Positions 30,466 through 43,143 are shown, counted from the stretch's first letter. The stretch is DNA of 64,000 bases from Candidatus Deferrimicrobiaceae bacterium (GCA_036504035.1 DASXVV010000012.1:62001-126000); one strand, 5' to 3'. Program-made: numbers and translations. Notes: generated from the letters alone by a model not told the origin.

Positions 30466-30579
30466 GATCGTGCGTGAGGATGGCAACCATCTGTTATCAA
30501 AGAAATATCGTCTTTGGCAGCCGCCGGGGCCTCCTGCAACCCGGAGAACGGGTTGACATGGAATGTCCAGGCGATGTAC

Positions 30580-32082
30580 ATGAAATGCATGTCATTGCGA
30601 GACCCGCTCGATCCGGACGACTGGCGCTTCCTGGAAATGGTCGCGCAGGCGGCCTTCGCCAACCCCTTCGGGCAGGCGCGCGACGACCTCGACGTCAGGA
30701 TCGGCGGCGCGGACCCCGGCGCGACGCCCGGCGCGGTGCTCGACGCGGCGATTGCCCGGGTCGGGGAGCGGATCGGCCGCCTGCAGCGGGCCGGGTGCGC
30801 TGACGTTCGCGGCTATGGGAGAACGCGCGGGGAGACGATCCGGACCGCGGTCCTGTTCCACCTGTTCCATCGTCATGCCGACGCATTCGACGCCCTGATC
30901 CGCGCCCAGTCCGGGAAGGGCGATGCGCCGGTCGCCGCCCCGTTCGCAGGCGAGGCGATGCGCGAGTTGTCGGGATTCGGGTTCGACCCGGAAGAGGCGG
31001 GGCGGCACCTGGCGCTCTTCTACCAGATGCGGCGGGCGTTCCACTTCGTCCGGGACGGACTGGTCGGTTCATCGCCCGCGATGCGGAAGCTGCGCGAGCG
31101 GCTCTGGAACTGCGTGTTCACGCACGATATCCGCTGGTTTGAATCCGGGCTGCGCGACCGGATGACCGAGTTTCCCGTCCTCCTGCTCGGGGAGACCGGG
31201 ACAGGGAAAGGGGCGGCGGCGTCTGCGATCGGTCGCTCTGGGTTCATCCCGTTCGACGCCGCGCGGGGCCGTTTCGCCGAAAGCTTCACTCGCAACTTCG
31301 TGGCGATCAACCTGTCCCAGTATGCGGAAAGCGTCCTTGAGTCCGAGCTGTTCGGGCATCGCAAGGGGGCGTTCACCGGCGCCATCGAGTCGCACGAGGG
31401 GCTGTTCGGACGTTGCCAGCCCAACGGGGTGATCTTCCTCGACGAGATCGGCGATGCAGCCGTGCCGGTCCAGATCAAGCTGCTCCACGTCCTGCAGGAC
31501 CGGACGTACTTCCCCGTCGGCAGCCACGAGACGTGCCGGTTCGAGGGGCGCATCGTCGCCGCGACCAACCGGCCGATGGGCGACCTCATGCGGGAAGGGC
31601 GCTTCCGGGAAGACCTCTATTACCGGCTCTGCTCCGACGAGATCACGCTCCCGACGCTCCGGCAGCGGCTTCGGGAGGATCCCGGTGAGCTCGGGCGCCT
31701 GGTGTCGAGCATCCTGTCCCGGCTGGACCCGGCGGCGTCGGGCCGGGAGGAGCGGCTGGTCATGGCGGCCTTGCGGGACGGGATTTCGCCCGATTACCCT
31801 TGGCCGGGCAACGTCCGGGAGCTGGAGCAGGCGGTGAAGCGGGTGATCCTCACGGGGCGGTACGAGGGGCGCGAGGCGGTTCCCTCCGCCGGGACGGAGG
31901 ACGATGCGCTCCTCGCCGGGGTCCGGGACGCGGCCCTCGATGCGGGGACGCTTCTCGCGCGCTACTGCGCGATGCTCCATCGCCGGTTCGGGAGCTACGA
32001 GGAAGTCGCACGCAAGACGGGGCTCGACCGCCGGACCGTCCGGAAATACATTCTGTCTCTTGACACTCCCAGCCGCCTGTAA
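30580..32082 (+). CDS. Sigma-54-dependent activator with an unrecognised N-terminal domain
   Basis: 500 residues. Residues 1-190 form a helical domain (DDWRFLEMVAQAAFANPFG ...) that is neither a receiver nor an obvious PAS or GAF domain. The AAA+ module is intact: Walker A GETGTGKG (204-211), GAFTGA (263-268), Walker B GVIFLDEIGD (283-292), PWPGNVREL. A Fis-like helix-turn-helix closes it (SYEEVARKTGLDRRTVRKYI). An AGG lies 8 bases before ATG 30580; ATGs at 30574 and 30589 are alternatives. Its divergent neighbour is the exported amidohydrolase, the likely target. The signal is unknown. Confidence 0.85.
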   Translation: MKCMSLRDPLDPDDWRFLEMVAQAAFANPFGQARDDLDVRIGGADPGATPGAVLDAAIARVGERIGRLQRAGCADVRGYGRTRGETIRTAVLFHLFHRHADAFDALIRAQSGKGDAPVAAPFAGEAMRELSGFGFDPEEAGRHLALFYQMRRAFHFVRDGLVGSSPAMRKLRERLWNCVFTHDIRWFESGLRDRMTEFPVLLLGETGTGKGAAASAIGRSGFIPFDAARGRFAESFTRNFVAINLSQYAESVLESELFGHRKGAFTGAIESHEGLFGRCQPNGVIFLDEIGDAAVPVQIKLLHVLQDRTYFPVGSHETCRFEGRIVAATNRPMGDLMREGRFREDLYYRLCSDEITLPTLRQRLREDPGELGRLVSSILSRLDPAASGREERLVMAALRDGISPDYPWPGNVRELEQAVKRVILTGRYEGREAVPSAGTEDDALLAGVRDAALDAGTLLARYCAMLHRRFGSYEEVARKTGLDRRTVRKYILSLDTPSRL

Positions 32083-33674: not shown

Positions 33675-34013
33675 ATGGGAAGAGCTGCGGTTTTGTTTGC
33701 TAGTCTGTTGCTTGCATTCACCTGGACGCCCGGTTCGGCTCTGGCCGGGGGGATTCCCGCCAAGGTCATTTCCTCCGAGCCCGAAAAGCTGGTTGTCCGA
33801 TTCGAAAACGGAGAAGGGTCTGCGTTCCCCGCAGGAATGCGCGACGTCGAGATCCGCTCCGGCGGGGTCGTCGTGGTTCGCGGACGGGTGATGACCTCGA
33901 GCCCGGAAGAAGCGACGTTCGCGATCATCAGGGGGAAGGCGACCGGCCTTCCCGCCGGGACCGCCGTCGAGGTGGAGCAGGCGACGGCCGCGGAGGGGAT
34001 CGACGGATGCTAG
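33675..34013 (+). CDS. Small exported protein, first gene of the cytochrome cluster
   Basis: 112 residues: signal peptide about 1-24 (AVLFASLLLAFTWTPGSALA), then a compact, beta-rich ~85-residue domain (KVISSEPEKLVVRFENGEG ... EIRSGGVVVVRGRVMT) ending DGC with a lone cysteine. No CXXCH. Family not recognised. ATG 33675 has GGGAGGG 7 bases upstream. It precedes the pentaheme cytochromes by 41 bases, so a periplasmic role connected to them is likely but unproven. Confidence 0.65.
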   Translation: MGRAAVLFASLLLAFTWTPGSALAGGIPAKVISSEPEKLVVRFENGEGSAFPAGMRDVEIRSGGVVVVRGRVMTSSPEEATFAIIRGKATGLPAGTAVEVEQATAAEGIDGC

Positions 34014-34054
34014 CCGACAGGATTCGAAAAGAACACGACGAGGAGCATGGCGCC

Positions 34055-35389
34055 ATGACGCGAAGGATCGTCCTTATCTCCCTGATTGCCTTCGGGCTCA
34101 TCGGCTGGTCGCCCGCGCATGCCGAAAAGGCGGGCATCGGGTGGAACGAGGGCATCGCGGCGAAGAAGGGCAAGGCACGGACGATCGCCGAGCTGGCCGC
34201 GATGTACGACTCGGCCCCCTGCGCCGAGTGCCACAAGGAAATCTACGACCAGTGGCGGAAGTCGTCGCACTTCTCCGCCATCTTCGGTTCGGGGCGCACG
34301 GCTGACGGCTTCTGGGCCTACATCCAGGACGGCCTGATGAAGTGGCGCTATTCCGGCGTCAAGGGAACGGGCGACGTCCGGATCGAGCACCTGATGGAAT
34401 GCGCCAAGTGCCACCTCCCCCAATTGGCCGAAGCCGAGGACTCCGTGGCGCAGGAGATCGTGTCCGCGCTTTCCGAACGGCAAGGCGCGCTCGACCGGAA
34501 GGACCAGGCGGCGGCCGACAAGGCGTCCGACACGCTCAAGTCGCTGAACGTCGGCTGCACGATCTGCCACAACCGGAACGCGCTTATCCACAAGTGGGCC
34601 GACGGGTACGCCAAGGCGAACGAGATCTACGGCACCAAGGACGGGGTGCACCCCGGCAAGGAATTCACGGTATTGAAGAAGAGCCCGATCATGGGAGAGT
34701 CGATCCTGTGCGGCCAGTGCCACGGGCTCGGCCCCAACCTCGACCTGGCCAACCCCAACCAGTGCACGACGCTCTACGGCAGCTATATCTACGCTTACCG
34801 GTCGCACGGGGGCAAGGAAACCTGCCAAGACTGCCACATGCGGAAGAACAAGATCGGGCACGAGACCAAGCCGCTGTCCGATCCCGAAATGATCAAGCAG
34901 ACGCTCGACGTGACGACGCAGACGCACGGCTTCTTCTGGCGCGACGGCCGTCAGGACGTCCCGCGGGTCGTCGTCGACGTGAGCATGACCAACCGGACGG
35001 GGCATTCCCTCCCCGACAGCATCTCCTCCAACCACCGGCTCGTGCTGACCGTGACGGCGAAGAACAGCGACGGCGACCAGCTCTTCTCCCAGCGCAAGAT
35101 CTACATGCAGGTCCCGCAGCGCTTCGGCCGGGGCGGCAAGATGGGACGCGCGGCCTTCGAGAAGACCGGCATCCTCGAGGACACCGCCCTGCCTCCAAAC
35201 GACCAGATCCGCGAGAAATTCGACTTCACGCTCGACGCGGATACCGGCGGCAGGGGGAAGGGCGCCAAGCTCCTGTCCGAGCTCGAGGTGCATGTGACGC
35301 TTCGGCAGTTGAGCGCCGATGACTCGCCCGATACCGGCGGCATCCTGCTCTACGAGACGAACCGGGACGTGACCATCGAGGAGCGGTAG
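34055..35389 (+). CDS. Pentaheme c-type cytochrome, cytochrome c554-like
   Basis: 444 residues, signal peptide 1-23 (ISLIAFGLIGWSPAHA). Five CXXCH motifs at residues 56, 116, 168, 219 and 257. The first lies in CAECHKEIYDQWRKSSH, the cytochrome c554 signature. After the haem domain a ~180-residue haem-free beta-rich C-terminal part begins (VSMTNRTGHSLPDSISSNHR). Periplasmic electron carrier or reductase subunit; substrate unknown. ATG 34055 has GAGGAG about 9 bases upstream. The next gene is a close paralogue, 4 bases away. Confidence 0.88.
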   Translation: MTRRIVLISLIAFGLIGWSPAHAEKAGIGWNEGIAAKKGKARTIAELAAMYDSAPCAECHKEIYDQWRKSSHFSAIFGSGRTADGFWAYIQDGLMKWRYSGVKGTGDVRIEHLMECAKCHLPQLAEAEDSVAQEIVSALSERQGALDRKDQAAADKASDTLKSLNVGCTICHNRNALIHKWADGYAKANEIYGTKDGVHPGKEFTVLKKSPIMGESILCGQCHGLGPNLDLANPNQCTTLYGSYIYAYRSHGGKETCQDCHMRKNKIGHETKPLSDPEMIKQTLDVTTQTHGFFWRDGRQDVPRVVVDVSMTNRTGHSLPDSISSNHRLVLTVTAKNSDGDQLFSQRKIYMQVPQRFGRGGKMGRAAFEKTGILEDTALPPNDQIREKFDFTLDADTGGRGKGAKLLSELEVHVTLRQLSADDSPDTGGILLYETNRDVTIEER

Positions 35390-35393
35390 CCCC

Positions 35394-36761
35394 ATGTCTT
35401 TGTCGGGACGCATCGCAAAGCTGGCGCTTCTCGCCGGCCTCGTTCTGCTCCTCCTGCCTGCGCCGGGCAGGCCGGAGCCGGCCGGGATCGGGTGGGACAA
35501 CACGCTCGTTGCCCGGAAGGGGAAGGCGAAGACCATCGCCGAGCTTTCGGCGATGTACGACTCGCGCCATTGCGAGGACTGCCACGCGAAGGTCTACCAC
35601 GCGTGGGACCGGTCGGCCCACTCCGAGCCGATCCTCGGGAAAAGGCGGGTCGGGCGCAAGGCGCTGGCGATCATGACGATCTTCGACATCGCGCGGGAGG
35701 AGTGGCCCTACACCAAGCTCGAGAGCCCCGCTGATGTCAAGGTCGAGCACCTCATGGGCTGCGCGAAATGCCACCTTCCCCAGCTCGCCGATGCCGAGGA
35801 CAGCGTCGCGCGGGAGCTCGTCGGCGATATCATCGCCTGGCGGGACGCCAACAAGCGCAAGGACGAGCGGAAGGCGAAGGCCATCGAGGGCAAACTTTCC
35901 CAGTTGTCCGTCAACTGCCTCATCTGCCATAACCGGAACGCCATCGTCCACAAGTGGACCGACGGGTATGCGCCTGCCCGGGCCATCTACGGGGCGGCGG
36001 CCGACAAGCCGCACCCCGCGGGGAAATTTCCCTACATCAAGCAGAGCCCGATCCAGGACGATTCGCTCCAGTGCGGGCAGTGCCACGGGCTCGGGCCGCA
36101 ACTCGAGCGCGACAACCCGACCCAGTGCCCCACGGTCTACGGCTCCTACCTCTTCGACTACAAGGCCCGGGGGGGCGACGAGAGCTGCCAGGATTGCCAC
36201 ATGCGGCGCTCCGAACTCGGGCACGACATCTCGAGCTACCGGAATCCCGTCATGATCAAGGCTGCGCTTGATTTCGCCGTCGACGCCACGCCGATGCTCA
36301 TGGTCGAGGACCAGAAGGCCGAGGCCGGGACCGGCGGAAAGCTTACCCCGAAGATCCGGGTCTCGGTGCGGATGACCAACAGGGCCGGGCACCCCATTCC
36401 CGATGGCTGTCCGACCACGACGCGGCTGATCCTCGACGTCACGGCGAAGACGCCCGACGGCAAGGAATTCTTCTTCAGCGAAAAGAGCTACATGCCGATC
36501 CCCCAGAACTATGCGCGGGGCGACAAGATGGGAAGGGGCCCCTTCCAGAAGGCGGCCATGATCATCGATACGGCGTTGCCCCCGCTCCGGCAGGTGGCCG
36601 AGAGCTACGAGATTCTCGTTCCCGGGGATGGGCGGCGCGAGATCGAGGTCGAGGCGAAGCTCGTCTATCTTCCCTTCGGCTCCACGAAAGCGGTCGACGA
36701 TCCGGTCGTGTGGCGCGACGTCATCCGCAAGGTGATGGTGGAAGGGCGGGATCCGGACTGA
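35394..36761 (+). CDS. Pentaheme c-type cytochrome, paralogue of the preceding gene
   Basis: 455 residues, signal peptide about 1-25. CXXCH at residues 60, 123, 175, 227 and 265, with nearly the same spacing as in the upstream gene, and shared text such as AGIGW, KTIAELSAMYDS, CAKCHLPQLADAEDSVA, CGQCHGLGP and CQDCHMR. The C-terminal half again has MTNRAGHPIPDG and a beta-rich domain. A tandem duplication with clear divergence between the copies, suggesting different partners or potentials. Its stop shares a base with the next start (TGATG). Confidence 0.88.
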   Translation: MSLSGRIAKLALLAGLVLLLLPAPGRPEPAGIGWDNTLVARKGKAKTIAELSAMYDSRHCEDCHAKVYHAWDRSAHSEPILGKRRVGRKALAIMTIFDIAREEWPYTKLESPADVKVEHLMGCAKCHLPQLADAEDSVARELVGDIIAWRDANKRKDERKAKAIEGKLSQLSVNCLICHNRNAIVHKWTDGYAPARAIYGAAADKPHPAGKFPYIKQSPIQDDSLQCGQCHGLGPQLERDNPTQCPTVYGSYLFDYKARGGDESCQDCHMRRSELGHDISSYRNPVMIKAALDFAVDATPMLMVEDQKAEAGTGGKLTPKIRVSVRMTNRAGHPIPDGCPTTTRLILDVTAKTPDGKEFFFSEKSYMPIPQNYARGDKMGRGPFQKAAMIIDTALPPLRQVAESYEILVPGDGRREIEVEAKLVYLPFGSTKAVDDPVVWRDVIRKVMVEGRDPD

Positions 36762-37090
36762 TGAAACGCTCCTTCCAATCCCCGCTGGCGTGTGCCCTCC
36801 TGTCCGTTGCGCTTCTCCTGGGCGGCGTCCGGACGGTTTCCGCCCTCGAGGATCAGAAGATCGTCGGGGTCGTCGTCCGTTTCGATATCGCGTCCGACGG
36901 GAAATCGGTCGAGGCCACCGTCAAGGATCTCCGGAAAGACAAGGAGATCAAGCTGCACGTCACGAACGAACTGGTCATCGACAAGTTCCGGTATGGCAAG
37001 CTCGCCGCGGGTGCGGAAATCCGGGCGAAGTACGAGTTCAGGGACGGCAAGAACTACTGCAGTTATTTCCGGAAAGTCAGCGGCGAATAG
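36761..37090 (+). CDS. Small exported protein of the cytochrome cluster
   Basis: 109 residues. Signal peptide about 1-28 (ACALLSVALLLGGVRTVSA), then an ~80-residue basic, beta-rich domain (DQKIVGVVVRFDIASDGKSVEATVKDLRKD ... AGAEIRAKYEFRDGK) that could be an OB-like fold. One late Cys, no haem motif. Family not recognised. It overlaps the pentaheme gene and precedes the chemoreceptor, so it may act as a periplasmic partner of either. Confidence 0.65.
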   Translation: MKRSFQSPLACALLSVALLLGGVRTVSALEDQKIVGVVVRFDIASDGKSVEATVKDLRKDKEIKLHVTNELVIDKFRYGKLAAGAEIRAKYEFRDGKNYCSYFRKVSGE

Positions 37091-37111
37091 CGGCCGATGC
37101 GGGGATAAACC

Positions 37112-38716
37112 ATGGCAAGCAGCAAATACTGGAACCGGCTGGCGGCACGACAGATGGCGGCGTTCGCCCTCCTGATCCTGGGCGTTACCGTCTTCCTGTC
37201 CTGGGCGGCCTACGACCTTGCCCGCAAGACGCTGGTCGAGTCGATCCGGGAGCGGGGACGGGGGCTGCTCACCGCGTTCGAAGGCGATGCGGCGGACCGG
37301 TTCGCCGAAGGAGACAAGGCCTACTTCTCGAAGTACCTCCAGGATCTCGCCTGGCGCGACCCTTCGGTGTCCTACGCGGCCGTCATCGACGCCAAAGACA
37401 CCGTGATCGCCCACAGCGAACAGGAGCTCGACGGGAAGAAGTGGACCCCGCCCCCGGGCAAGGGGACGGGGACCATGAAGATCATCGAGCGGACGGTTCC
37501 CTGGAAGAAAGGCGTCGTCCTCGAGTTCACCGTTCCCGTCGAAGAAGAAGGGAAGAAACTCGGCACGCTTCAGCTCGGCATCAACTACACGCGGGAGACG
37601 GCAAGCCTCGCGAACCTTGCCCGCAAGATCGCGCTGGCCGGACTGGTGATGCTCCTGGTGGCGCTGCTGGTCGCCTACAAAATGTCGCAGCGGATCAGCG
37701 CCGGCTTGTCGCGCCTGTCTGCGTCGGCCCGTCAGATCGCCGCCGGGGATCTCGACGTCCAGGTACCCGAGGACGACGGGAAGATCGAGGAGATCCGGGA
37801 GCTGGCCCATGCGTTCAACGCCATGACCGGCGGCCTGCGCGGGATCCTCGACCGGATCGGCCAGAGCAGCGACCGCCTCGGGTCGTTCGGCGAGAAAGTC
37901 GCCGGGGTCATTCGGGACCAGGCGCAGAACACGACGACCCAGGCCTCCTCGGTTTCCGAGATCACGGCCACGATGGAAGAGCTGTCGCGGACCTCGCACC
38001 AGATCGCCCGGAACGCCGGCGACGTCCAGAAGACCGCGGCCGACTCGGTCGACGTCGCCCGCAAAGGGACGCAGCTCGGGAAGGCGGGCGTATCGGCCAC
38101 CGACAGCCTCCGTAACAAGATCCTGAATATCTCCGAGAAGACGTCGTTGCTCAACGAGAAGTCCGTCGAGATCGGGAAAGTTGTGACGATCATCCGGGAG
38201 ATCGCGGGCGAGATCCACCTGCTGGCGCTGAACGCCGCGATCGAGTCGGCGGCGGCGGGCGAGAACGGGCGCCGCTTCGCAGTCGTCGCTTCCGAGGTCC
38301 GGCGGCTGGCCGAGAAGACGCGGGAATCGACCGAGACGATCCGCTCGATCGTGTCCGAAATCCAGTCGGCGGCCCGCGATTCCTCGCGGGTCACGGGCGA
38401 GGGAACCGTCGAGATGGAATCCTGGCAGCAGCTGGTGCAGGAGATCTCCTCCGCCTTCGAGGAGATCATCCACCGGATCGAGACCACATCCGAGGCCAGC
38501 GCCCAGATCTCGATGGCCACGAACCAGCAGACCAGCGCGAACGAGCAGGTGGTGCTGTCGATGCGCCACGTGGCCGAGATCGCGCAATCCTCGGTCCGGG
38601 GGATGAACGGGTTGTCGGATGCGACAGGCGAGCTGTCACAGTTGATCGGGGGGCTGTGCCAGGAAGCCGCCGCCTTCCGGAAACGGGCCGATCAAACTGC
38701 GCAGGCGGAGGCCTGA
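37112..38716 (+). CDS. Methyl-accepting chemotaxis protein embedded in the cytochrome cluster
   Basis: 534 residues: first membrane helix about 14-34, a periplasmic sensor of ~135 residues resembling a single Cache fold (SYAAVIDAKDTVIAHS), second helix about 172-190, HAMP (MSQRISAGLSRLSASARQIAAGDLDVQVP), then a long coiled-coil signalling domain with tip IAGEIHLLALNAAIESAAAGEN...RRFAVVASEVRRLAEKT near 366-402. No cytochrome motif and no C-terminal pentapeptide tether. It lies between cytochrome genes, 21 bases after the small exported gene and sharing its stop with the next start, so it is probably cotranscribed with the electron transfer genes. Confidence 0.93.
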   Translation: MASSKYWNRLAARQMAAFALLILGVTVFLSWAAYDLARKTLVESIRERGRGLLTAFEGDAADRFAEGDKAYFSKYLQDLAWRDPSVSYAAVIDAKDTVIAHSEQELDGKKWTPPPGKGTGTMKIIERTVPWKKGVVLEFTVPVEEEGKKLGTLQLGINYTRETASLANLARKIALAGLVMLLVALLVAYKMSQRISAGLSRLSASARQIAAGDLDVQVPEDDGKIEEIRELAHAFNAMTGGLRGILDRIGQSSDRLGSFGEKVAGVIRDQAQNTTTQASSVSEITATMEELSRTSHQIARNAGDVQKTAADSVDVARKGTQLGKAGVSATDSLRNKILNISEKTSLLNEKSVEIGKVVTIIREIAGEIHLLALNAAIESAAAGENGRRFAVVASEVRRLAEKTRESTETIRSIVSEIQSAARDSSRVTGEGTVEMESWQQLVQEISSAFEEIIHRIETTSEASAQISMATNQQTSANEQVVLSMRHVAEIAQSSVRGMNGLSDATGELSQLIGGLCQEAAAFRKRADQTAQAEA

Positions 38717-39963
38717 TGGCCGGGATCTCAAGGGAGTCGATCCGGATGAAACTGGGCAAGGGCCTGGCGTCGCTGTTGCTCGTCCTGCTCGTCGCCGCGC
38801 CCGCGGCCGCCGAGGGCCCCGTCCTGAGCGGGCGATCCTCCACGCAGATCATGGCGTTCTCGGACGAGTCCGGCAAGGACCGGGTTCTGGCCCAGCAATA
38901 CCTGCGCGCGCTCGTGCGGGGGCTCGACAACGACGGAACGCTCACCGTGAGCGGATACGGGAGACTGTCGGGCGACATCCGGAACGGCGAAGCGTTCGAG
39001 GGGCGGCTCTACTACCTCTATCTCGACAAGCGGGAGATGCTTCCGGCCACCGACGTGCGGGTCGGGCGCCAGTTTTTCTGGAACGCCGCAGGCTCCGCGA
39101 TCGTCGACGGGGGGCGTGTCGACGTCCACCCGTACCGCCTGATGACGCTGACCGCGGTCGGGGGGCGCCACGTCGTGTTCGACCTGACCGGCGAGGAGAC
39201 GCGCCGGGGCGACTACGCGGGCGCGCTACAGCTCAGCTTCGACTCTATTCCCGACGGGTCGGCTGCGATTTCCTGGTACAGGGCCACCGACGAAAGCGAC
39301 CTGGCCCGCGACGCGGTCGGGTTCGAGGGCGCCAAGCAGCTCGGCAAGAACGCCGAGGTCTTTACCCAGCTTCGCGCCGACCTCGTCACCGAGACCTTCA
39401 CCGAAGTCGATGCGGGCATCCGGACCACGCCGCTGCCCAACCTGACGGTCGGCGCCGAGTTCCTGCGCACCGTCCCCGAATTCGACACCACCTCGATCTA
39501 CGCGACGATGGCCGTCGAGAAGTACGACTACGCCTCGCTGACGAGCCAGTACGACTGGAACTCGAACCTTTCCTTCACGGCCGAGTTCCGCCGCGAGAAA
39601 TACGGCGACGGCGGGACCGGCAACGGCGCCGAATTGGGCGTTCGCTACAAGCCGTTCGACGGTTCGCTGGGCTCCGTCTTCGGCGGGATGATCTGGCGGA
39701 CCGGCGCGGGCGGAGACCTGCTGGGATTCGAGCTGTCCGGCGAATACGCCTGGTCCCCGACCCTGCTGCTCGTCGGCGGCATCCAGCAGGACGCCTTCCA
39801 GACCGACATGATGACCGGCTCTCGCCACGCCACCCGGTTCTGGGGCGGGGTCGAGTCGAAGCTGCGGAAGAACCTGTCCCTCTCGGCACGGGTCGAGGAC
39901 ACGATCTCGACCGACGCGAGCAAGGATCTTCGGGCGCGGCTGACGCTGAACGCCAACTTCTAG
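38716..39963 (+). CDS. Outer-membrane beta-barrel, candidate porin of a cytochrome conduit
   Basis: 415 residues. Signal peptide with hydrophobic core LASLLLVLLVAAPAAA, alternating strands with many Tyr/Phe/Trp at strand ends (YYLYLDKREM, VAVEKYDYASL), and a C-terminal Phe (LTLNANF). There are no cysteines. ATG 38716 has GGAGG 4 bases upstream; ATG 38746 is an alternative. Flanked by the chemoreceptor and the nonaheme cytochrome, it is the best candidate for the barrel that houses electron transfer across the outer membrane. At 415 residues it is much smaller than MtrB. Confidence 0.75.
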   Translation: MAGISRESIRMKLGKGLASLLLVLLVAAPAAAEGPVLSGRSSTQIMAFSDESGKDRVLAQQYLRALVRGLDNDGTLTVSGYGRLSGDIRNGEAFEGRLYYLYLDKREMLPATDVRVGRQFFWNAAGSAIVDGGRVDVHPYRLMTLTAVGGRHVVFDLTGEETRRGDYAGALQLSFDSIPDGSAAISWYRATDESDLARDAVGFEGAKQLGKNAEVFTQLRADLVTETFTEVDAGIRTTPLPNLTVGAEFLRTVPEFDTTSIYATMAVEKYDYASLTSQYDWNSNLSFTAEFRREKYGDGGTGNGAELGVRYKPFDGSLGSVFGGMIWRTGAGGDLLGFELSGEYAWSPTLLLVGGIQQDAFQTDMMTGSRHATRFWGGVESKLRKNLSLSARVEDTISTDASKDLRARLTLNANF

Positions 39964-39976
39964 GAGGAGAGGGCAC

Positions 39977-40762
39977 GTGAAGAAAATCATCCCCATGCTC
40001 CTCGTCGTCCTGGCCGCGATCGGCGCGAAGCCGCTGTACGCGCTCGTGAACCACGCCGACTACAAGGACATGAAGCTCAACGAATGCAACGAGTGCCACC
40101 GCGACTCCGGCGTGGTCCCCAACCATCAGGCGGGCTGGAACGCCGACCATCGGCGGGTCGCGGTCAAGCCCGATTCCGGGACCAACTGCGCGCACTGCCA
40201 CGCCCAGGCGTTCTGCTCCGATTGCCACTTCGGCGGCGGGGTCAACGCGACGCTGCAAACGCCCACGACCCGGGACGGCCGCGATTACATGCCCCGCTCC
40301 CACCGCTCCGACTTCCGGGAGACGCACCCCATCCAGGCGGCCGAAAAGCCGGCCTCCTGCACAAGATGCCATCCGGTTTCCTATTGCACCGACTGCCATC
40401 GGCAATACCAGCCCGCCGACCTTGCGTTCCAGTCCCACCGGAAAGGATTCTCAGACCTGCAGACCTCCGCCGTGGGCCCGAAGCACGCGACCTTCCCGGA
40501 CAGCTCATGCCGGTCGTGCCATCCCAATTCGCTCCTGTCCACCCACCGCTGGACTTCGTCGCATCGCCAGGAGGCCCGCCGGAACCTGGCGGCATGCCAG
40601 GCCTGCCACCCCGACGGCGACGTCTGCATGAAATGCCACAGCGCCCGGTCGGGCCTCCGGGTCAAGATCCACCCCGGCAACTGGGGCTCGATCAAGGGCA
40701 AGCTCCAGCGGGCATCGGGGCAGCGCTCCTGTCTCAAGTGCCACGACGTCATCCCGTGGTAG
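39977..40762 (+). CDS. Nonaheme c-type cytochrome, likely periplasmic
   Basis: 261 residues, signal peptide about 1-22 (IIPMLLVVLAAIGAKPLYA). Nine CXXCH motifs at 37, 71, 80, 128, 137, 178, 207, 217 and 252, one haem per ~27 residues, with closely paired motifs (71/80, 128/137, 207/217) typical of linear electron wires. No lipobox, so periplasmic or inside a barrel. It follows the barrel by 13 bases and precedes the decaheme lipoprotein by 44, the barrel/periplasmic/outer-surface order of porin-cytochrome conduits. Confidence 0.9.
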   Translation: MKKIIPMLLVVLAAIGAKPLYALVNHADYKDMKLNECNECHRDSGVVPNHQAGWNADHRRVAVKPDSGTNCAHCHAQAFCSDCHFGGGVNATLQTPTTRDGRDYMPRSHRSDFRETHPIQAAEKPASCTRCHPVSYCTDCHRQYQPADLAFQSHRKGFSDLQTSAVGPKHATFPDSSCRSCHPNSLLSTHRWTSSHRQEARRNLAACQACHPDGDVCMKCHSARSGLRVKIHPGNWGSIKGKLQRASGQRSCLKCHDVIPW

Positions 40763-40806
40763 CCCATTCGTTTCGAGTTTCGCAGCCCGAAAGGAGATTC
40801 ATCCGA

Positions 40807-43143
40807 ATGAAACGGCACTCTGCGCTCTTCCTTGTCGCATCGCTCGCCGCATCGCTTCTCCTTGCGGGCTGTTGGGGATCGGACCGGACGATCGGCGCGA
40901 CCGCGCCCGTAGCGGCGCCCGCGGCCACCGGGAATCTCAATGCCGCGATCACGTCCGTTTCCATCCCGGCCGACGGGAAGCCGGTGGTGACCTTCTCTCT
41001 CTACGACGAGAACGGCGCCGCGCTCGACCCGGCCGTGCTCCTGGCAAGCAGCGGGGGATCGCTCCGTTTCCAGATCGCCAGGATCAAGGCCGACGGCTAC
41101 TACGAGAACTACATCAAGAATGCCAGCGGGCTCCCGAGCTACGACGTGGCGATTCCGTCCGCGTCGCAGTTCGCCGCGCTCGGCGGCGGCGTCTATACCT
41201 ACAAGTTCGCCAACGCGATCGACAACGCGTCCCAGACGCTCGGCGGCATCGTGCTCGCGGGCAACGAGGCGCTCACGCACACCGTGGCCTTCACCGCTGC
41301 CCGCAATGTCCTCACGTCGACGGGCAAGACGTTCCAGCAGGCGGTCAACCCGTACCTGCACTTCCGCCCAGACGGCGGCGCCGTAACCACATCGCGCGAG
41401 ATCGTCGCCGTCTCCAACTGCAACGGATGCCACGGGAAGCTGGCTCCGCACGGAGGCACCCGGCGGGACGTCGCCCTGTGCGTCATGTGCCACTATGCCG
41501 GCGTCCGCGACATCAAGGGCGCGGCCGCGACCGGCAACTCGATCAACCTGCGCGACCTCGTCCACAAGATCCACTATGGCGTCAACCTGCCGAGCAACAA
41601 GGCAGGGGGCAAGTTCGTGATTGGCGGCGACAGCTTTGCCGACGTCAAGTTCCCGCTCAATTCGGGCGACCCTCTGGTCACCAACACCCCGATCAAGTGC
41701 ATCAAGTGCCACAAGGCGGGAACCGACGCTGCGGGGCGGCCGTTCGGCCGTGATGCCAGCCGCTACAAGGCCAATCCGACGCCCGCCAAGTGCATGTCCT
41801 GCCATGACACGATGATCTTCGACAGCGCGAACGCGTCGGTCGTGGTGAAGGGCGGCGCCGCCGGCCAGGACAACGTCACGGTGCCCGATACCAACCCCAA
41901 CATTGTCAAGCACTACAATTACGCGCAGCGCAACCTCGACGTCACGGGAGCGCAGGCCGACAACACGGCCGTGTGCAGCACATGCCACGTCCAGACGGCG
42001 CTCGCGGGCACCGAGTACAAGCTCGGCGACATCCAGGGCGTCCACACGCTCGTCGAGGAGTCGAGCTTCAACTTCACCGTCCACTTCCAGATTCTGGCCG
42101 TCGACAACGTCGACGCCGTCAACCGGTCGCCGAGGGTCACCTTCAAGGTCGCCTACGACAACGGCGCCGCCATCGCGCCCTCGACCGTCGCCAACGTCAC
42201 GAACCTGACGCTCAAGCTCGGCTACATCCCGGCAGGCGCCATCGACTTCTCGAACGACTTGATGTTCAACGGGGGGGTGACGCCGACGAAGCCCGGCGAG
42301 GCGATGTCGCTGGCGATCACCGGGTCCACGACGGCGGTCGACAATCTCGTCGACAACGGCAACGGGACGTACACCGCCCGCTTCTCCAGCATCGGGAGCG
42401 TTCTGCCCGCGGCTGCCTCTGCCGGCGTCGGCATCGTCACCCTCGAAGGGCGCGTGGGATTGCCCGGCACGATCACGACGCCCCGCAAGACGCTCAGCAA
42501 TGCCAACACCCGCTTCTCGGGCCCGGCGGCGCAATGGTATTTCGATCTTGCCACCGGGACGCACGTCACCGACTCGGCCCGGATGCGGCGCCAGGTGGTC
42601 GATACGAACAAGTGCCGCAACTGCCACGGGATCCTGCGCGGGCATAGCGGCAGCCGCTACAACGTCGAGGAATGCGTCGTCTGCCACAACCCCAACCTGT
42701 CCGACAACGTGGACGTGCCCACGTATCCGGAATATCCCGCCGTCTTGCGGTACATGATCATGCGGATCCACCGGGGGACGCTCGCCACGCAACCGTACAT
42801 GGTCGGGCCGGGGCGGAGCAGCGTCCGATTCCCGGGCGACACGCGCAATTGCCTCCTCTGCCATGTCGATTCGCTGCCCCTCACGTTCGGCGTTCCGCTG
42901 AAGGCGGGCATGCTCCCCGTGACCGTCTCCCGGGGGGCGATCCAGAACGACAGCGCCGACGACACCAAGATCGGCCCCATCCGGGCGTCCTGCGTCCCGT
43001 GCCACGACAGCCCGACGTTCCCGCTGCCCCACATCCTGCTGCAGACCACGGGGAGCGCCTCCAACCCGACCGAACTGTGCGCCAACTGCCACAGCACCGG
43101 GCTGCTGCTGGGGCCCGACTTCGCGCACGAGGCGGTCAAGTAG
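40807..43143 (+). CDS. Decaheme OmcA/MtrC-like outer-surface lipoprotein cytochrome
   Basis: 778 residues. Lipobox LLLAGC puts the lipidated cysteine at residue 22. Ten CXXCH in two groups of five: 205, 225, 298, 329, 390 and 603, 623, 682, 729, 758. Beta-rich haem-free domains (about 45-190 and 415-590) precede each group, the split-barrel/pentahaem alternation of OmcA/MtrC proteins. Expected to reduce extracellular acceptors such as Fe(III) oxides at the outer face. ATG 40807 with AAAGGAG about 10 bases upstream. Last gene of the cluster before two hairpins. Confidence 0.93.
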   Translation: MKRHSALFLVASLAASLLLAGCWGSDRTIGATAPVAAPAATGNLNAAITSVSIPADGKPVVTFSLYDENGAALDPAVLLASSGGSLRFQIARIKADGYYENYIKNASGLPSYDVAIPSASQFAALGGGVYTYKFANAIDNASQTLGGIVLAGNEALTHTVAFTAARNVLTSTGKTFQQAVNPYLHFRPDGGAVTTSREIVAVSNCNGCHGKLAPHGGTRRDVALCVMCHYAGVRDIKGAAATGNSINLRDLVHKIHYGVNLPSNKAGGKFVIGGDSFADVKFPLNSGDPLVTNTPIKCIKCHKAGTDAAGRPFGRDASRYKANPTPAKCMSCHDTMIFDSANASVVVKGGAAGQDNVTVPDTNPNIVKHYNYAQRNLDVTGAQADNTAVCSTCHVQTALAGTEYKLGDIQGVHTLVEESSFNFTVHFQILAVDNVDAVNRSPRVTFKVAYDNGAAIAPSTVANVTNLTLKLGYIPAGAIDFSNDLMFNGGVTPTKPGEAMSLAITGSTTAVDNLVDNGNGTYTARFSSIGSVLPAAASAGVGIVTLEGRVGLPGTITTPRKTLSNANTRFSGPAAQWYFDLATGTHVTDSARMRRQVVDTNKCRNCHGILRGHSGSRYNVEECVVCHNPNLSDNVDVPTYPEYPAVLRYMIMRIHRGTLATQPYMVGPGRSSVRFPGDTRNCLLCHVDSLPLTFGVPLKAGMLPVTVSRGAIQNDSADDTKIGPIRASCVPCHDSPTFPLPHILLQTTGSASNPTELCANCHSTGLLLGPDFAHEAVK

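Follow-up and report, generated by a model that had tools for sequence, protein, structure and literature searches.

An OmcA/MtrC-family decahaem cytochrome behind a porin–cytochrome pair in a putative electron conduit operon with tandem ExtKL genes lacking selenocysteine

Porin–cytochrome (Pcc) clusters as defined by Shi et al. (2014) combine porins of 18–22 strands with periplasmic cytochromes of 5–14 haems and outer cytochromes of 1–15 haems (PMC4245776). According to work cited in PMC4589669, the OmbB-OmaB-OmcB complex of Geobacter sulfurreducens moved electrons across proteoliposomes, and the pccF cluster of G. metallireducens (Gmet0908-0910) already couples a 9-haem to a 10-haem cytochrome (PMC11389400). 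Here we describe eight open reading frames (ORFs), all on the + strand at positions 33675-43143 of a 64 kb stretch of Candidatus Deferrimicrobiaceae bacterium DNA (DASXVV010000012.1:62001-126000, hereafter the window). They encode two small exported proteins (sm1 and sm2), two pentahaem cytochromes (K1 and K2), a methyl-accepting chemotaxis protein (MCP), an outer-membrane barrel, a nonahaem cytochrome and a decahaem lipoprotein. The four cytochromes carry 5, 5, 9 and 10 CXXCH motifs, 29 in total, while shuffled versions of the same proteins average 0.01-0.09; no further ORF in the window has two or more. We consider it highly probable that this operon specifies a hybrid of Pcc and MtrC components, an outer-membrane conduit passing respiratory electrons outward, together with a duplicated ExtJK module free of selenocysteine (Sec).

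Compared with OmbB-OmaB-OmcB and pccF, the locus has the same order of barrel, periplasmic multihaem and outer multihaem cytochrome, and likewise a small barrel and a wire of 8-9 haems. It differs in that the outer cytochrome belongs to the OmcA/MtrC family instead of being OmcB-like (Gmet0910 was not compared with the OmcA/MtrC family), and in the addition of ExtJ and ExtKL paralogues and a chemoreceptor. With Shewanella MtrCAB and OmcA-MtrC it shares an outer decahaem cytochrome of the same family (TIGR03507), but the MtrB-type barrel, the MtrA-type decahaem and the extra disulfide of the outer decahaem are all absent. The ExtHIJKL system of Geobacter, also present in this genome, has ExtJ-like and ExtKL proteins in common with the operon, which however lacks the ExtH rhodanese lipoprotein and the ExtI porin, has a barrel unrelated to ExtI and contains two tandem ExtKL copies, both without an in-frame TGA.

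The barrel and the nonahaem cytochrome matched no named functional family in Pfam, NCBIfam and PDB sequence searches (in the PDB, neither the profile of the barrel nor the nonahaem protein gave a convincing match), and both are identified through their relatives. When 297 genomes of the phylum were searched with the barrel, matches were found in 31. A nonahaem homologue (8-11 haems) neighbours the barrel in all 20 loci fetched, and a large multihaem gene then follows in 18; the two exceptions are L040 and a locus cut short by the contig end. A second set, obtained by scanning GTDB genomes with the nonahaem alignment, comprised 78 loci in which 80 genes of the nonahaem family were called as ORFs. 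Of these 80, 78 have the barrel directly upstream (74 by ORF calling and 4 by tblastn, one of these partial) and the other two sit at contig ends; 73 are directly followed by a multihaem gene. The hosts include Geobacter argillaceus, Geotalea, Geomonas, Citrifermentans, Geothermobacter and many Nitrospirota, and homologues of both proteins occur in trios of Geobacter, Geotalea, Geomonas and Citrifermentans. An earlier note on this DNA had proposed that barrel, periplasmic wire and outer cytochrome follow porin–cytochrome logic, a proposal that separation of the three genes in relatives would have undermined; the linkage found in both sets supports it. It also leaves a vanishingly small probability that the barrel is an unrelated solute porin standing beside cytochromes by chance, since a position directly upstream of a haem wire in nearly every copy, in several phyla, outweighs the fact that its best structural matches are generic porin folds.

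The trio genes are clustered, the barrel is smaller than MtrB and has 22 strands in an AlphaFold2 model (predicted local distance difference test, pLDDT, 85.3), within the published 18-22, and the nine haems of the wire lie within the published 5-14. By its size, its numbers of strands and haems and the order of its genes the barrel–nonahaem pair is thus best classed as a member of the Pcc family. The short barrel and a nonahaem not of MtrA size had been taken in the earlier note as signs of a possibly distinct conduit type, and these reasons fall because both are normal features of described Pcc clusters (PMC4245776). What does stand of that suggestion is the combination: the pair is of a known kind, and its association with an OmcA/MtrC decahaem and with ExtJ and ExtKL proteins is unusual.

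Pcc trios of other composition were seen among the fetched loci. Those at L125 9639-13772 and L132 2724-6095 combine very large outer cytochromes, carrying 17-24 CXXCH, with a periplasmic partner of 11 haems. Tandem trios with similar barrels and differing outer cytochromes occur at L066 4169-12038, L041 5524-14845 and L077, like ombB/ombC described for G. sulfurreducens.

The decahaem protein scores well above the TIGR03507 cut-off of 209.3 bits and is the only OmcA/MtrC protein of the window's genome to exceed it. Its nearest solved structure is MtrF (3pmq, E value 4e-20). The signal peptide has the lipobox LLLAGC, ending at Cys22, and as all cysteines belong either to haem motifs or to the lipobox there is no extra disulfide. 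Membership of this family is the one point in favour of an MtrCAB-type conduit of the Desulfobacterota, such as that reported in Desulfuromonas acetexigens. We give this reading almost no weight: neither the barrel nor any other part of the genome matches PF11854 (MtrB/PioB), MtrB has 26 strands where the barrel has 22, and the wire carries nine haems and matches no DmsE/MtrA model in NCBIfam. Two assignments of the barrel were rejected outright, that to MtrCAB by the PF11854 search of barrel and genome, and that to ExtI by the lack of a match to the ExtI model and by direct comparison, in which the two proteins are unrelated.

In most Pcc trios the third gene lies outside the OmcA/MtrC family, as does the decahaem of L061, from a sister genus. 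It belongs to that family in the window, in L059 (65% identical) and in L067, L071, L074, L080 and L082 (41-46%), with fragments in L069. In a tree of 25 OmcA/MtrC proteins, the seven found in third position form one clade (support 100/99) that is present in all bootstrap trees, with no shuffle giving as low a value, and that excludes the orphan OmcA/MtrC genes found in the family to which the window belongs. The tree of barrel plus nonahaem, which includes further loci, scatters these ones, and its supported branches force at least five partner changes, within the limits set by 25 and 35 rows respectively, metagenome assemblies and midpoint rooting. Because the decahaem clade is single while its barrel–nonahaem partners scatter, it appears that one outer cytochrome lineage has moved among several barrel–nonahaem lineages, or that it is old and has often been replaced; either way the trees indicate that the plug was exchanged. 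A caveat is G127, a genome of the same family, in which a different contig carries a fragmentary decahaem resembling these. A lack of co-evolution between Pcc barrels and their outer cytochromes has been remarked before (PMC4245776). The more specific proposal that a specialised OmcA/MtrC clade caps Omb/Oma barrels and has been swapped across phyla among unrelated sockets, here with a captured Sec-free ExtKL pair as periplasmic partner, has in our estimation an even chance of being correct.

K1 and K2, described earlier as c554-like, are in fact ExtKL paralogues, both well over the cut-off of 250 bits of NF040886 (multiheme c-type cytochrome (seleno)protein ExtKL) and 44% identical to each other. 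The own match of sm1 to the ExtJ model NF040942 is insignificant, while its orthologues in two genomes of the same genus match at E values of 4e-8 and 4e-6, and sm1 aligns at 31-37% with ExtJ from the canonical extHIJKL clusters of two genomes of the genus, its own and one other; on these alignments it is classed as a distant ExtJ paralogue. The second small protein, sm2, has a conserved C-terminal region (GKN.C.YF.K..G) and travels with the operon. In the search of 297 genomes, most ExtKL homologues over the cut-off have one in-frame TGA, at the motif IPDGU-P in the site alignment, which leaves out some minus-strand loci, and the TGA of G. sulfurreducens ExtKL is a predicted Sec codon (PMC6148476, PMC5877670). 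Neither K1 nor K2 contains a TGA: in the alignment the Sec site is a cysteine in K2 and an isoleucine in K1 (PDSIS), which is neither Sec nor Cys. The genome encodes SelB and, at approximately G000:C9:313219-317500 (L168 10202-16126), a complete extH-extI-extJ-extKL(Sec) cluster, with an MCP of the four-helix-bundle type directly upstream of extH. Scores there, with cut-offs in brackets, are 333 bits for ExtH (200), 595 for ExtI (150), 64 for ExtJ (52.5) and 566 for ExtKL with one TGA (250). In another genus of the family (L217 1143-4711, on G305:C237), a K1-like gene without the stop is followed by a K2-like gene retaining the Sec TGA, and next to this tandem pair are sm2 and MCP genes homologous to those of the window. 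As only the second copy has the TGA, the pair suggests that ExtKL was duplicated first and that the change from Sec to Cys came later; it may be an intermediate on the way to the window's Sec-free pair.

These relationships raise the question whether the operon serves mainly for the reduction of an oxyanion such as selenite or tellurite, K1 and K2 acting as periplasmic reductases while the conduit acts as an outlet or a source of electrons, in the manner proposed for extHIJKL. The paralogy of K1, K2 and sm1 with ExtKL and ExtJ is in keeping with such a role, as is the lower selenite and tellurite reduction of a G. sulfurreducens extI deletion (PMC5877670). We nevertheless find it unlikely: ExtH and ExtI are missing from the operon, K1 and K2 are without Sec, and the complete Sec-containing extHIJKL cluster elsewhere in the genome already covers this task.

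In the outward conduit that we prefer, the 22-strand barrel would hold the nonahaem cytochrome as an insulated wire. Periplasmic electrons would enter the nonahaem, with K1 and K2 as likely donors or mediators, or as a coupled reductase, travel through the nine haems of that cytochrome, cross to the ten haems of the surface lipoprotein and leave for an acceptor outside the cell; Fe(III) or Mn(IV) oxide, an oxyanion and a shuttle are examples. The chemoreceptor might steer the cell by the condition that the conduit serves. Family memberships, the linkage of the genes, the recurrent trio, the single clade of Pcc-linked decahaems and the lack of Sec in K1 and K2 are seen directly. Complex formation, electron direction and the nature of the acceptor or substrate are proposed by analogy with the OmbB-OmaB-OmcB complex (PMC4589669), and the parts given to K1, K2 and the chemoreceptor are inferences as well.

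Several points weigh against this proposal. On the contig of L040, from the same family, a barrel–nonahaem pair stands without the third gene. Membership of the Pcc family rests on Geobacteraceae loci of described architecture and not on G. sulfurreducens OmbB and OmaB themselves. The fold search with the barrel returned generic large barrels only (FimD and OprD-type porins, best template modelling score ~0.55), which is uninformative on function, and the nonahaem model, built without haems, was poor (pLDDT 50). Finally, the reverse use, electron uptake from outside, would need the same parts. An inward conduit, fed by Fe(II), a cathode or a partner cell, would profit from an architecture that works in both directions, and many of the relatives are uncultured Nitrospirota and subsurface lineages. 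Since the closest characterised conduits are reductive (PMC4589669, PMC6148476) and ExtKL of G. sulfurreducens reaches a higher abundance with Fe(III) than with fumarate (PMC5877670), we hold inward transport to be distinctly improbable.

The full gene set is kept in a second genome of the genus (L059, judged by coordinates to be G306:C34) in changed order: sm2, another MCP, sm1, K1, K2, barrel, nonahaem and decahaem. In a third (G179), sm2, MCP, sm1, K1 and K2 are followed by the contig end. The sensor domain of the MCP varies, being sCache_3_2 in the window and in G305 and a four-helix bundle in L059, in G179 and at the canonical ext locus. Because of this difference between loci, a chemoreceptor is retained with the operon while its input is exchanged.

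In the open literature searched (subscription papers lay outside this scope), we found no direct report of hybrid Pcc-MtrC clusters, of their combination with ExtJK or of this lineage. Shaw et al. (2025) described OmcA/MtrC cytochromes of Desulfobacterota outside mtrAB and stated that their association with MtrAB is not known (PMC12133095). In the window, the gene for a cytochrome of this kind immediately follows those for a barrel and wire of the Geobacter type, and MtrB is missing from the genome; a concrete partner that can be tested is thereby named. What is new is the OmcA/MtrC outer subunit on a Pcc pair, itself already known, and the attached duplicated Sec-free ExtJK module. Through the incongruent trees, the general remark on missing co-evolution gains a specific example, in which a single clade of plugs is matched with several lineages of sockets. 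If true, this would mean that outer-membrane conduits are modular and would explain how MtrC-type cytochromes function in bacteria without MtrAB. A genome that holds both tandem Sec-free ExtKL and Sec ExtKL also permits a test of the purpose of selenocysteine.

Table 1. Genes of the operon, in window coordinates
Feature	Position	Strand	Basis
sm1, small exported protein, distant ExtJ paralogue, 112 aa	33675..34013	+	NF040942 E 0.026; orthologues and ExtJ alignment
K1, ExtKL paralogue, exported pentahaem, 444 aa, PDSIS at Sec position	34055..35389	+	NF040886 493.7 bits
K2, ExtKL paralogue, exported pentahaem, 455 aa, Cys339 at Sec position (PDGCP)	35394..36761	+	NF040886 492.1 bits
sm2, small exported protein, no known family	36761..37090	+	homologues adjoin ExtKL-type genes in L059, L167, L217
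Methyl-accepting chemotaxis protein, sCache_3_2 + HAMP + MCPsignal	37112..38716	+	Pfam
Pcc-type (OmbB-like) outer-membrane barrel, 405 aa, 22 predicted strands, Cys-free	38746..39963	+	homologues by cytochrome pair; AlphaFold2 pLDDT 85.3
Pcc-type (OmaB-like) periplasmic nonahaem cytochrome, 261 aa	39977..40762	+	homology, invariant haem motifs, gene order
Outer-surface decahaem lipoprotein, OmcA/MtrC family, 778 aa	40807..43143	+	TIGR03507 362.9 bits; MtrF 3pmq; clade

A scan for sigma-70 promoters and terminators gave sites no more frequent than in shuffled sequence. A regulator with a sigma-54 interaction domain is encoded at 30514-32082, upstream of rplS and ~1.6 kb before the operon, with no evidence tying it to the latter. 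One-base overlaps of stop and start codons (TGATG) at the K2/sm2 and MCP/barrel junctions, and gaps of 4-44 nt at the remaining ones, suggest that the eight genes form one transcription unit. ORF and motif counts reproduced the earlier description of eight genes on one strand with 5+5+9+10 CXXCH, a chemoreceptor and two small exported proteins. For the barrel, the absence of cysteine was confirmed, and its length is corrected from 415 to 405 residues, the start being probably at 38746 and not at 38716.

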